This document shows positions 26,312 through 40,814 of a stretch of 64,000 nucleotides of DNA, piece by piece. A program made the position numbers and the translations under genes. Origin of the DNA: Microbacterium sediminis (GTDB lineage Bacteria > Actinomycetota > Actinomycetes > Actinomycetales > Microbacteriaceae); NCBI RefSeq assembly GCF_004564075.1, contig NZ_CP038256.1:868001-932000 (forward strand). The letters are read 5' to 3'. Within the stretch, counting starts at the first letter, position 1. Each line of letters starts with the position of its first letter. Under the pieces are notes generated by a model, which was not told where the DNA came from, did no database searches, and saw only the letters and a program-made list of their open reading frames with translations.

Positions 26312-26324
26312 GTAGCGTAACTAT
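26312..26324. promoter_or_regulatory. weak RpiR-type operator before the MDR operon
   Basis: GTAGCGTAACTAT matches 9 of the 12 defined positions of the island consensus GTAGTATNACTAC. It lies just upstream of a minus-strand -10-like TATACT (26308 to 26303). A perfect 14-bp palindrome CGGCGACGTCGCCG (26289-26302) adjoins it. This would be the control site for the two dehydrogenases and the VOC gene. Confidence 0.35.
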
Positions 26325-26353
26325 CAAAATAGCGGACAATCTCCGAACGATGG

Positions 26354-26387
26354 TTGATTAGATCGCCGCTCTCTGTAGTATGACTAC
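26354..26387 (+). promoter_or_regulatory. importer promoter with RpiR-type operator
   Basis: GTAGTATGACTAC at 26375-26387 is a full match to the island operator. Its TAGTAT (26376-26381) doubles as a -10 hexamer, with TTGATT (26354-26359) 16 bp upstream as -35. A repressor bound here would occlude RNA polymerase. The transcript start would lie about 60 nt before the binding-protein gene. Confidence 0.68.
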
Positions 26388-26447
26388 GAACTTCGGCTCC
26401 GGACCCGGGCCGATCTCTCACAAAGATGTGAAGAAGGAGATTCGCTG

Positions 26448-38316: not shown

Positions 38317-39270
38317 TCACGCCCGCGGCGAGAACGCCAGAACGCTCGCGGGGTTCGCGCGGAGGATGCGGTCGACCGCGGCGTCGCCGACCCGCTCCGC
38401 CAGGCGCGGCACGAAGCGGGCCGCCAGGTAGGCCAGCCCCGGCATGCCGCCGTAGGCCGCGTAGCGGGAGCGCCGCGCGACGTCGCCGCCCAGCAGCAGC
38501 CGGTCCCCGTGGCCGTCGACCACGCGGGCGGCGCACTCGATGATGGCCTCGTCGGAGTGGTACTGATGGCGCGCCGGGCCGTCGTAGCCGAGGTACGCCC
38601 CGGCGGCGGCGAGCTCGCGGTGCAGGCCGGAGTCGAGGTTGCGGTCCATGTGCGCCAGGATCACGCGATCCGCCGGCACGCCGAGGCTGTCCAGGAGCGC
38701 GAGCACCTCGAGGGTCGCCGAGCCGTGCTCGGTGTGGACCATGATCGCGACGCCGGTGCGCGCGTGGGCGCTCGCCGCCGCCGCGAGCACGCGGCGCTCG
38801 AAGTCGCCGATGTTCCAGAACCGGATGCCGGTCTTGACGATGCCCGCCCGCGGCGCGGGGCCGGCAACCGGGGCGGCCGGCTGCTCCCACGCGGGCTGGG
38901 TGAACCCCTCCGTGATCTCGCGGGTGAACAGCTCGGCGAGCGCCGATTCGTCGAGGGCGCGCACGGGGTGATCGTCGGGGTAGTGCCCGCCGTGGTGCGC
39001 GCCCGTGGCGTGCACCACGCGCAGGCCGGTGCGCCGGGAGATCTCGACGGCGTCGGAGACGCGCCGGCCGAGGCCGAGCGGGGTCGCGTCGACCATCGCG
39101 TCGATCCCGCTGGCCACGAACAGCTCCGCCTCGCGCCGCGAGCGCGCCGGATCGTCGAGCTCCTCGCCGCGCAGCAGCGGCGTCACCTGGAAGAGGTGCT
39201 CGTGGTAGTCGACGGCCCCGAGCGCGGCGGGGTCGATGTCGCCGAGGAGGGTGCGGACGATCGCGCTCAC
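38317..39270 (-). CDS. phosphotriesterase-family amidohydrolase (possible sugar lactonase)
   Basis: A 317-aa metal-dependent TIM-barrel hydrolase. The first metal pair is in 'VDYHEHLFQV' near residue 20. 'TPLGLGRRVSDAVEIS', 'VMVHTEHGSA'-like 'MVHTEHG' and 'ILAHMDRNLDSGLHRELAAAG' supply later His ligands, and 'LLGGDVARRS' the conserved Asp. Some family members in sugar clusters hydrolyse phosphorylated sugar lactones, which would fit between a dehydrogenase and a kinase here. GTG at 39270 overlaps the kinase stop (GTGA), so both are one operon, convergent to rpiR. Confidence 0.8.
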   Translation of the reverse strand: MSAIVRTLLGDIDPAALGAVDYHEHLFQVTPLLRGEELDDPARSRREAELFVASGIDAMVDATPLGLGRRVSDAVEISRRTGLRVVHATGAHHGGHYPDDHPVRALDESALAELFTREITEGFTQPAWEQPAAPVAGPAPRAGIVKTGIRFWNIGDFERRVLAAAASAHARTGVAIMVHTEHGSATLEVLALLDSLGVPADRVILAHMDRNLDSGLHRELAAAGAYLGYDGPARHQYHSDEAIIECAARVVDGHGDRLLLGGDVARRSRYAAYGGMPGLAYLAARFVPRLAERVGDAAVDRILRANPASVLAFSPRA

Positions 39271-40754
39271 GGCAGCATCTCGAACCACGGCTCGACCCGG
39301 CGATACAGGTCCATGAACAGCTCGTACTGCTCGAGATACGCCGCCGCGGTCTGCGGCTGCGGCTCGACCGACTCGAGGCGGCCGCTCAGCGTGCGGGCGA
39401 CGGCGAAGTCCGGGAAGATCCCCACGCCGACGCCGGCCACGACGGCGGCGCCCATCGAGGTGGCCTCGTCGACCAGATCACGCTTCGTCACGCGGCGGCC
39501 CCACACGTTGCTGAGGATCTCGAGCGTGAGGGCTCCGTTGGCGGCGCCGCCGATGGCATCGACGTTGTCGATCGTCCTGCCGTTCTCGAGGAACGCGAGC
39601 AGCCCCGTGCGGAGGTTGAACGCCACGCCCTCGAGCACCGCGCGCGTCAGATGCGCCGGCCCGTGGTGGCGCGCCAGGCCCGCGAACACGGCGCGTGCCC
39701 GCGGGTTCCAGTACGGCGAGCGCTCGCCGAGCAGGTGCGGCAGGAAGTAGAGGCCGTCCGCCGCGGCGCCGACGCCCGCGGCGCCGGCGAGCAGCTCCTC
39801 GTAGCGCGCCTCGCCGCCGGGGCGGAGGGTGTCGACGATCCATTGCAGCGACGCCCCGCCGGCCTGCATGGTGGCGGTCGGCACGAACCGGCCGGGAATG
39901 ACGTGGTTGAACGTCATGCTGCGCATCTGCGGGTCGTGCAGGGGCTCCGGCGCGCTGAGCGAGACCCAGGACGAGGAGCCGAGGTAGGCGTAGGCGCCGT
40001 CGGACTCGTCGACGATGCCGGCGCCGAGCGCGCCCATCGGGCCGTCGCCGCCGCCCATCACGACCGGGATCCCGGCGATCAGGCCGGCCTCGGCCGCCGC
40101 CTCGCGCGTGACGGTGCCGATCACCGTCGTGGAGGGCACGATCTCCGGCAGCAGGCCGTCGACCCCGGCGGCCTCGACGAGCTCCGCCGACCAGGCCCCG
40201 TCAGCCTGGCTGTAGGCGTCGGTGCCCGAGGCGTCGGAGGGATCGGTCGCGAGGACGCCGGTCAGCCGGTACGCGACGTAGTCCTTCGCCTGCACGACCG
40301 TGACGGTGCGAGCGAAGCTCTCCGGCTCGTGCGCGCGGAGCCACATCAGCTTCGGCAGGGAGTACGTCGGATTGAGGCGGTGACCCGTGATCGTGTAGCC
40401 GCGCTCCATTCCGACCGCCTCGATGAGCGTCGCCGTCTCCGCGGAGGACCGGGTGTCGGCCCAGATGATCGCGGGTCGGACGACCTCGCCGCCGGCGTCG
40501 AGGGGGACCACGCCCATCATCTGCCCGGAGAAGGAGATGACATCGATGTCATCGGCGCGGACGCCCGCCCGCTCGAGCAGGCGCCGCGTGGCCTCGCAGG
40601 AGGCGCGCCACCAGTCGCCGGGGTCCTGTTCCGCCTTGCCGCCGGGCCCGAAATCGGTGTCGTAGGCGACGGTCACGCTGGTGATCAGCGTTCCCTCATT
40701 GCTCACCAGCGTCGCCTTGTTGCCGGTGGTCCCGAGGTCGTGGGCGAGGATCAA
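39267..40754 (-). CDS. FGGY family carbohydrate kinase (xylulokinase-like)
   Basis: A 495-aa ATP-dependent sugar kinase. N-terminal 'HDLGTTGNKATLV' is the phosphate-1 loop; 'ISFSGQMMGVVPLD' is like xylulokinase; 'ATDPSDASGTDAY' includes the catalytic Asp region; 'GGGDGPMGALGAG' and 'IGGAANGALTLEIL' are the C-terminal ATP motifs. The start is most likely TTG at 40754, since it directly precedes the fold and has AAGGAG 6 nt upstream; a longer in-frame start would run over the operator. Kinase and PTE hydrolase form one operon with an RpiR-type operator at 40802. Confidence 0.88.
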   Translation of the reverse strand: MILAHDLGTTGNKATLVSNEGTLITSVTVAYDTDFGPGGKAEQDPGDWWRASCEATRRLLERAGVRADDIDVISFSGQMMGVVPLDAGGEVVRPAIIWADTRSSAETATLIEAVGMERGYTITGHRLNPTYSLPKLMWLRAHEPESFARTVTVVQAKDYVAYRLTGVLATDPSDASGTDAYSQADGAWSAELVEAAGVDGLLPEIVPSTTVIGTVTREAAAEAGLIAGIPVVMGGGDGPMGALGAGIVDESDGAYAYLGSSSWVSLSAPEPLHDPQMRSMTFNHVIPGRFVPTATMQAGGASLQWIVDTLRPGGEARYEELLAGAAGVGAAADGLYFLPHLLGERSPYWNPRARAVFAGLARHHGPAHLTRAVLEGVAFNLRTGLLAFLENGRTIDNVDAIGGAANGALTLEILSNVWGRRVTKRDLVDEATSMGAAVVAGVGVGIFPDFAVARTLSGRLESVEPQPQTAAAYLEQYELFMDLYRRVEPWFEMLP

Positions 40755-40801
40755 CGCGAACTCCTTTGCGAGCGGAATCTCCGTGCGACGTCGCCACGGA
40801 T

Positions 40802-40814
40802 GTAGTAACACTAC
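40802..40814. promoter_or_regulatory. RpiR-type operator of the kinase operon
   Basis: GTAGTAACACTAC; the reverse complement GTAGTGTTACTAC matches 11 of 12 consensus positions. On the minus strand TAGTGT (40813 to 40808) would be the -10, 54 nt before the kinase TTG start. Confidence 0.62.

Follow-up and report, generated by a model that had tools for sequence, protein, structure and literature searches.

Operators and genes of the sugar island

The 64,000-nucleotide stretch of the Microbacterium sediminis genome analyzed here (assembly GCF_004564075.1, contig NZ_CP038256.1, positions 868,001 to 932,000 of the forward strand; hereafter the window) contains a sugar island with its own RpiR-family gene. 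Regulators of this family sense phosphosugars and are widespread in bacteria. The island encodes two sugar ABC transporters, two zinc alcohol dehydrogenases, a VOC-like protein (so labelled by eye from its translation), a short-chain dehydrogenase (SDR), a cupin-type glucose-6-phosphate isomerase (GPI), an aldolase of the 2-keto-3-deoxy-6-phosphogluconate/2-keto-4-hydroxyglutarate (KDPG/KHG) type, a shikimate-dehydrogenase-like (AroE-like) protein, a 2-hydroxyacid dehydrogenase, the RpiR protein, a phosphotriesterase-like lactonase, and an FGGY kinase. An earlier note described seven copies of a palindrome upstream of these genes and proposed a local RpiR regulon under HexR-like, KDPG-sensing control. 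Its observation was confirmed and had been understated, and its interpretation is partly supported; the main feature, which it overlooked, is the helical phasing of paired operators. The sites (no strand assigned) and the regulator gene are as follows.

26312–26324: distal operator, two mismatches, 63 bp from 26375
26375–26387: perfect operator; its -10-like TAGTAT points to the ABC transporter gene at 26448 on the plus strand
33168–33180: perfect operator, the proximal one for the ABC transporter operon on the minus strand, whose binding-protein frame starts at 33081
33241–33253: partner operator, one mismatch, 73 bp from 33168 and just downstream of the SDR stop
34050–34062: partner operator, two mismatches, toward the divergent SDR gene and 73 bp from 34123
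34123–34135: perfect operator with a -10-like TAGTAT; the GPI-cupin gene, first of the RpiR operon, follows 38 nt downstream
40802–40814: perfect operator, unpaired, upstream of the operon for the FGGY kinase and phosphotriesterase-like lactonase
37402–38304, plus strand: predicted RpiR-family regulator (HTH_6 and SIS domains), proposed binder of all operators

We scanned the window, on both strands, and the genome, counting mismatches per site, with 100 shuffled sequences as the control. The window contained 15 matches compared with 3.6 ± 2.0 in the shuffles, none of which reached 15. All seven sites were recovered with the scores first assigned to them, i.e., no mismatches to the original definition at 26375, 33168, and 34123, one at 40802, two at 33241 and 34050, and three at 26312. 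The motif does not occur at random: every match with zero or one mismatch in the 2.92-Mb genome is one of four island sites, and the listed matches outside the island all have two mismatches. The window has two further matches with three mismatches (1140 and 34484). Nor does every site head a transcription unit: 33241 lies beside the 3′ end of the SDR gene, 73 bp behind 33168, and heads no unit of its own; together with 33168, it stands ahead of the minus-strand transporter operon.

Judged by its sequence, the palindrome is better read in the symmetric form GTAGT-N3-ACTAC, the 15-bp RccR-type operator rather than that of canonical HexR. On this scoring 26375, 33168, 34123, and 40802 are perfect, one mismatch remains at 33241, and two each at 26312 and 34050. 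Likening it to a HexR operator was imprecise: it equals the RccR consensus TGTAGT-N3-ACTACA (PMC5489143; published systems are cited throughout from extracts of their sources), whereas the Pseudomonas HexR operator is given as TTGT-N7/8-ACAA and the island's protein scores under the HexR cut-off. For the 28-bp long-linker operator of RccR, TGTAGT-N16-ACTACA, the window contains no match with two or fewer mismatches and one with three (1.9 expected by chance); an Rfam scan of the window matched nothing. Six of the seven sites are paired: 26312/26375 at 63 bp, and 33168/33241 and 34050/34123 at 73 bp each.

Operator pairs are helically phased across actinobacterial loci

Among 398 genomes of the same family, 20 RpiR relatives besides the window's own were found at 50–58% identity, below which identity drops to 36% or less; one of them (in genome G386) was matched over its C-terminal part only, its gene being split over two frames. 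Stretches of up to 20 kb were fetched around these genes. A first contig scan with the window protein alone as query matched no relative. A profile (A1) of the window protein and 19 relatives matched 8 of 396 genomes of the order at E ≤ 1e-60, and found 299 relatives in named genomes, from which the 80 best were taken. The window, the 20 stretches, and these 80 loci gave 101 loci; removal of 13 duplicates or near-duplicates left 88 distinct ones. Pair counts were made on the 56 of these from actinobacteria and excluded the other 32, in which pairs are few. Family names were taken from record titles, some records being metagenome-assembled genomes (MAGs), and gene starts were predicted with a simple script based on open reading frames and GC position, not with a gene finder.

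A pair was defined as two sites 40–130 bp apart, the better with at most one and the other with at most two mismatches of ten. The 56 loci contained 101 such pairs, compared with a mean of 0.76 and a maximum of five for 29 permutations of the half-site; on these control palindromes, chance and base composition were rejected as an explanation. Duplicated records were likewise rejected, given the removal of duplicate loci before counting. At least one pair is present in 48 of the 56 loci, and pairs occur under the titles Microbacteriaceae, Geodermatophilaceae, Cellulomonadaceae, Pseudonocardiaceae, Streptosporangiaceae, Jiangellaceae, Bifidobacteriaceae, and Streptomycetaceae.

The distances between paired sites cluster near 63, 73, 84, 94, and 105 bp. 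In full, they are 44 (one pair), 63 (two), 72–74 (54), 82–85 (13), 92–97 (18), 103 (one), 105–108 (nine), 110 (one), and 120 bp (two), with no pair at 45–62, 64–71, 75–81, 86–91, or 98–102 bp. Whole helical turns were matched within 2 bp by 92 of the 101 pairs, where 38% would be expected. With one representative per sequence cluster (53 in all), R was 0.79 at 10.5 bp with a phase of -0.1 bp, a value equalled by none of 20,000 random sets. Without the 72–74 bp class, the remaining 28 representatives kept phase with 73 bp, as did none of 100,000 random sets, although the observed set was given slightly more trial periods than the random ones; when this test was rerun with 15 periods on both sides, none of 30,000 random sets did so. 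Repeated counting of one inherited spacing was rejected on the basis of the sequence clusters and the exclusion of the 72–74 bp class. The period is 10.48 bp (95% interval 10.44–10.52) if whole turns are assumed, and the best fit is 10.85–10.95 bp if the phase is left free. A further 18 pairs lie 131–400 bp apart, outside the 40–130 bp range of the phase statistics.

The strongest single result concerns the GPI promoter, where spacing has changed only by about whole turns: 38 loci have spacings of 63 (one), 73–74 (17), 84–85 (four), 92–94 (13), or 105–106 bp (three), and no other class occurs. By gene arrangement, 65 of the 101 pairs are divergent, 30 tandem, one convergent, and five undecided. 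Tandem pairs are as well phased as divergent ones (R = 0.87 and 0.80, respectively), and the geometry of divergent promoters alone was rejected as the cause for this reason. The pairs thus share one mark of a looping repressor, namely operators on one helical face whose spacing is free to vary by whole turns. Among the 199 paired sites, there are 110 site-gene associations 5–75 nt before a predicted start; a TAnnnT element is oriented toward the gene in 65 of these and opposite in 17, so the proposed overlap with the -10 box stands as a trend.

Two operator triples were also seen, at L088:2701-2823 (25 + 85 bp) and L100:9854-9969 (73 + 30 bp). Outside the actinobacteria, the verrucomicrobial MAGs L118 (5237/5426), L119 (5415/5604), and L121 (539/728) each contain two one-mismatch sites 189 bp, or 18.0 turns, apart; because their RpiR proteins are nearly identical, this spacing counts as one case.

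The sites co-occur with the RpiR gene

Exact sites number 44 across 21 genomes that carry an orthologous RpiR gene (at least one in 20 of them), compared with five sites, in four genomes, among 22 genomes of ten of the same genera without the ortholog. One of the 44 lies on a different contig from the RpiR gene and some others are up to about 40 kb away. Exact-exact pairs with a gap of 50–80 occur in two of the 398 family genomes, both with the ortholog. The reversed pattern, as a control, occurs 3–20 times per genome with or without the gene. Nine loci around distant RpiR genes (31–36% identity, L037–L045, ±1.5 kb) contain no site with zero or one mismatch. In a de novo palindrome count, GTAGTN3ACTAC ranked first in the actinobacterial loci (11 of 11, score 21.5; the next, unrelated palindrome scored 7.4) and did not rank first in 11 Burkholderiales, five verrucomicrobial, or eight other proteobacterial loci. 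Exact pairs with a gap of 50–80 were absent from the 369 genomes of the class of G770 (Vibrio penaeicida), a range that misses the 51-bp pair upstream of aceE in genome G935 discussed below. The frames tested in the island and the ten tested on its flanks yielded no regulator besides the RpiR protein; three of the ten had Pfam matches (heavy-metal P-type ATPase, SNF2 helicase, and phosphofructokinase). The operators and a local RpiR regulon, as the earlier note had proposed, are well supported by the genome-wide scan and the comparison of related islands.

The regulator falls beside HexR and RccR

The protein belongs to the RpiR family by both of its domains, with HTH_6 at 71.2 bits and SIS at 69.4 bits, each above the Pfam gathering score. 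Its best family match is the HexR model NF008451 (234.2 bits; 235.1 in a second run), below the curated cut-off of 296, and its best solved relative is RccR (39% identity). The tree has 98 rows, 96 of them different, and a branch with support of 99/97 separates off the actinobacterial proteins; with proteobacterial and verrucomicrobial relatives they make up a 93-row clade (99/95) apart from E. coli HexR and PaRccR, which group together outside it (99/77), both being flagged as long branches. On its sequence, the regulator is placed in a clade beside HexR and RccR, and it grouped with neither. The recognition helix reads VSEPTVM in nearly all actinobacterial proteins and VSEPTVL (one VSEPTIL) in Burkholderiales; elsewhere it is mostly VSEPTVI or VSQPTVI, with VSEPTVM in two. 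The predicted structure (mean predicted local distance difference test score 78, predicted template modeling score 0.59) best matches RccR (8ju9/8k3b, template modeling score about 0.53), with an uncertain domain arrangement.

In PaRccR, KDPG is contacted by S139, H148, R152, H164, S183, S185, S188, K270, and R277, and KDPG binding is undetectable in the R152A, K270A, and R277A variants (PMC10810197). These nine positions read S, Q, V, H, S, T, T, K, and R in the window protein, i.e., five are retained, while R152 is replaced by V, H148 by Q, and both S185 and S188 by T. All 20 rows of A1 have Q at the H148 position and L or V at the R152 position; the other clade members tabulated, some of them twice, likewise have L or V in place of R152, and Q in place of H148 with a single exception (H, in L125). 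E. coli HexR retains the R152 residue. Since the phosphate side is retained and the carboxylate side changed, with one structure as the basis, another phosphosugar is indicated; KDPG sensing, as first suggested, appears doubtful, and the effector is probably a compound related to KDPG.

Three side observations concern these genes. The RpiR gene of G386 lies in two overlapping frames (L065:9717-10585), as if frameshifted, and its phased pairs (73 and 63 bp) are retained. At G000:C2:71738-72399, on a 128-kb second contig of the genome, two adjacent partial HexR-family matches appear as if an RpiR gene were split. A search beside zwf with a consensus for E. coli HexR gave only weak HexR-like sites.

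Gene content of the island

The remaining genes of the island are as follows.

24061–26257, minus strand: two zinc alcohol dehydrogenases, divergent from the second transporter and facing the 63-bp operator pair
26448–29380, plus strand: second sugar ABC transporter operon (binding protein, permease, ATPase)
29456–33081, minus strand: sugar ABC transporter operon (permease 29456–30418, ATPase 30415–31908, binding protein 31999–33081)
33255–33983, minus strand: SDR, divergent from the RpiR operon
34173–34784, plus strand: cupin-type GPI family protein (PF06560), first gene of the RpiR operon
34733–35437, plus strand: KDPG/KHG-type aldolase (TIGR01182, 224 bits against a cut-off of 156)
35502–36467, plus strand: shikimate-dehydrogenase-like protein (weak AroE matches, no Pfam match)
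36458–37405, plus strand: D-isomer 2-hydroxyacid dehydrogenase, inside a longer frame (35855–37405), start not fixed
38317–39288, minus strand: phosphotriesterase-like, phospho-furanose-lactonase-like protein, under the curated cut-off
39267–40835 as listed, minus strand: FGGY sugar kinase, true start probably downstream of the 40802 operator

The KDPG-type aldolase that had been placed in the regulator's operon was thereby borne out. Gene maps of the loci were made with tblastn at E ≤ 1e-15, where paralogues are possible and contig ends cut some loci. The set is kept across the 56 actinobacterial loci: 2-hydroxyacid dehydrogenase in 51, AroE-like protein in 48, GPI in 47, lactonase in 44, FGGY kinase in 43, SDR in 42, and aldolase in 39. 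GPI-cupin, AroE-like protein, FGGY kinase, and RpiR protein recur together in Burkholderiales, Verrucomicrobiota, and other proteobacteria; in 19 Burkholderiales loci, the aldolase, lactonase, and 2-hydroxyacid dehydrogenase were undetected at E 1e-15. The recurring set apparently represents an uncharacterised phosphosugar pathway.

A looping model and its alternatives

We consider it likely that an RpiR tetramer holds two operators on the same face of the DNA and loops 60–105 bp over promoters under phosphosugar control. The palindrome would be the operator of the island's own RpiR protein, with each of the two dimers of a tetramer on one GTAGT-N3-ACTAC site. At about 6–10 turns (63, 73, 84, 94, or 105 bp), paired sites would face the same way, such that one tetramer could bridge them and loop out the 60–105 bp of DNA between. 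With one operator usually over the -10 or start region, and often one at each of two divergent promoters, the loop would shut the promoters. A phosphorylated sugar produced by the island enzymes would bind the SIS domain and alter the complex, and is expected to free the promoters, that of the regulator's own operon included. The sites, their pairing and phase, their conservation, and their occurrence together with the gene are direct results of the analysis. Looping itself we strongly infer; we also infer binding by the window's RpiR protein, its tetrameric state, repression, and the identity and direction of the effector.

Several observations weigh against this model. In the window, the 40802 operator is single; the best non-overlapping site within 130 bp of it has four mismatches. 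Nine of the 101 pairs lie more than 2 bp off a whole turn (44, 92, 97, 107 twice, 108, 110, and 120 twice), and the 44-bp pair consists of two perfect sites; the 120-bp pairs come from near-identical loci, where sites with two and one mismatches lie inside a predicted reading frame, the 110-bp pair is one leg of an operator triple, and some off-phase distances arise because of such triples (L088 and L100). Locus L054 has a further off-phase pair, at 155 bp or 14.8 turns. Eight of the 56 loci lack a pair (L051, L063, L064, L080, L086, L101, L113, and L125), of which five are contigs of 3.6–11.3 kb; the genome of L063 has an exact-site pair 96 bp apart beyond the stretch fetched. Burkholderiaceae relatives lack such sites, and other proteobacteria and Verrucomicrobiota have few; relaxed motifs likewise gave few sites in all three groups. 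As loci were selected by their RpiR gene, its presence in them is by construction, and co-occurrence was tested only in the two genome-level counts. The two RccR sites at P. fluorescens aceE, ‘separated by 68 bp’ (PMC5489143), would be 6.5 turns apart if this is measured start to start; if it is measured edge to edge, they are 83 bp start to start, or 7.9 turns. Lastly, free NanR of Streptococcus pneumoniae is mostly a dimer that becomes a tetramer with its effector, DNA affinity being unchanged (PMC12713135), and the form in which Pseudomonas HexR binds is likewise given as a dimer. Should this apply to the present protein, a tetramer loop free of effector would be unlikely, or it would be the effector that closes the loop.

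That HexR is described as a dimer would also suit RpiR dimers binding independently, without a loop, at spacings set by promoter geometry, with the -10 regions of two divergent promoters phased by coincidence for RNA polymerase. Consistent with this, 65 of the 101 pairs lie between divergent genes and many sites contain a -10-like element. We nevertheless regard it as improbable: the 30 tandem pairs are equally phased (R 0.87), polymerases at separate promoters need no helical register across 60–105 bp, and the GPI promoter switches among whole-turn classes. Still less probable, indeed very unlikely, is binding by another regulator such as one of the GntR/FadR type, whose half-site pattern, TNGTNNNACNA, the palindrome fits too; the frames tested in and beside the island revealed no such gene, the sites track the RpiR gene across genera, and RccR binds the same sequence.

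A true KDPG sensor of the HexR/RccR type, with the island feeding an Entner-Doudoroff-like intermediate to the KDPG-type aldolase, would be compatible with looping. The aldolase scores over its TIGR01182 cut-off, HexR is the best family match, the best solved relative, RccR, was solved with KDPG, and the phosphate-side and K270/R277 positions are largely retained. The protein nevertheless falls outside HexR/RccR in the tree, and the two positions that contact the C1 carboxylate are changed, with L or V for R152, which RccR needs, and Q for H148 in all but one of the clade members compared; we hold this possibility to be rather unlikely. The looping tetramer may, as a tentative extension, reflect the normal mode of the whole HexR/RccR branch, the loop being the sensor's output: as its binding place is the junction of three of the tetramer's monomers, a phosphosugar effector could directly make or break it. 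If true, proteobacteria would have their version of this device in the RccR pairs at aceE, which are 51 bp apart in one genome and about 83 bp apart in P. fluorescens.

For the bridging of two operators by an RpiR tetramer, a 2025 preprint only proposes looping (PMC12713135). We found no report of phased RpiR operators in a literature search that left most subscription journals outside; on RpiR proteins and looping it yielded this preprint and a review in which the loop is that of PtxR/PtxS. A spacing conserved in phase and not in length across loci whose titles name eight actinobacterial families provides evolutionary evidence for a loop, and its natural variants are ready-made for testing one. 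The motif can also be used for mapping RpiR regulons in actinobacteria.

Comparison with known systems

RccR is the nearest known system: it shares the 15-bp palindrome found here, has it paired upstream of aceE, and is the closest solved protein. At aceE, two footprints lie on either side of DNase-hypersensitive DNA, a pattern called ‘suggestive of DNA bending’; binding appears cooperative, and the term ‘loop’ does not occur in the main text of that study (PMC5489143). In G935, whose RccR is 89% identical, two exact 15-mer cores lie 51 bp (4.9 turns) apart upstream of aceE. In contrast to the window's regulator, whose target is a sugar-catabolic island, RccR governs pyruvate, glyoxylate, and gluconeogenic genes and also uses the 28-bp long-linker site; the window protein differs in its H148 and R152 positions and its clade. 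HexR (E. coli YebK; Pseudomonas) is similar in its RpiR domains and in controlling genes near a KDPG-type aldolase, and differs in its clade and in an operator, TTGT-N7/8-ACAA, unlike the palindrome of the window, in which no dedicated search for the HexR consensus was made.

RpiR proteins crystallise as tetramers. For E. coli MurR it has been suggested that one tetramer spans two sites lying 17 bp apart, 47 bp overall, and a loop has been put forward for S. pneumoniae NanR in a text that also mentions the AraC loop (PMC12713135). MurR and NanR (S. pneumoniae, V. vulnificus) resemble the present system as RpiR tetramers and differ in having short side-by-side or scattered sites and other effectors and operators; no evidence of helical phase was met in the extracts on these proteins. 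In the loops of LacI, GalR, and AraC, a multimeric regulator holds two operators on one helical face. The pairs described here resemble theirs in lying on the same face, and the proteins belong to unrelated families.

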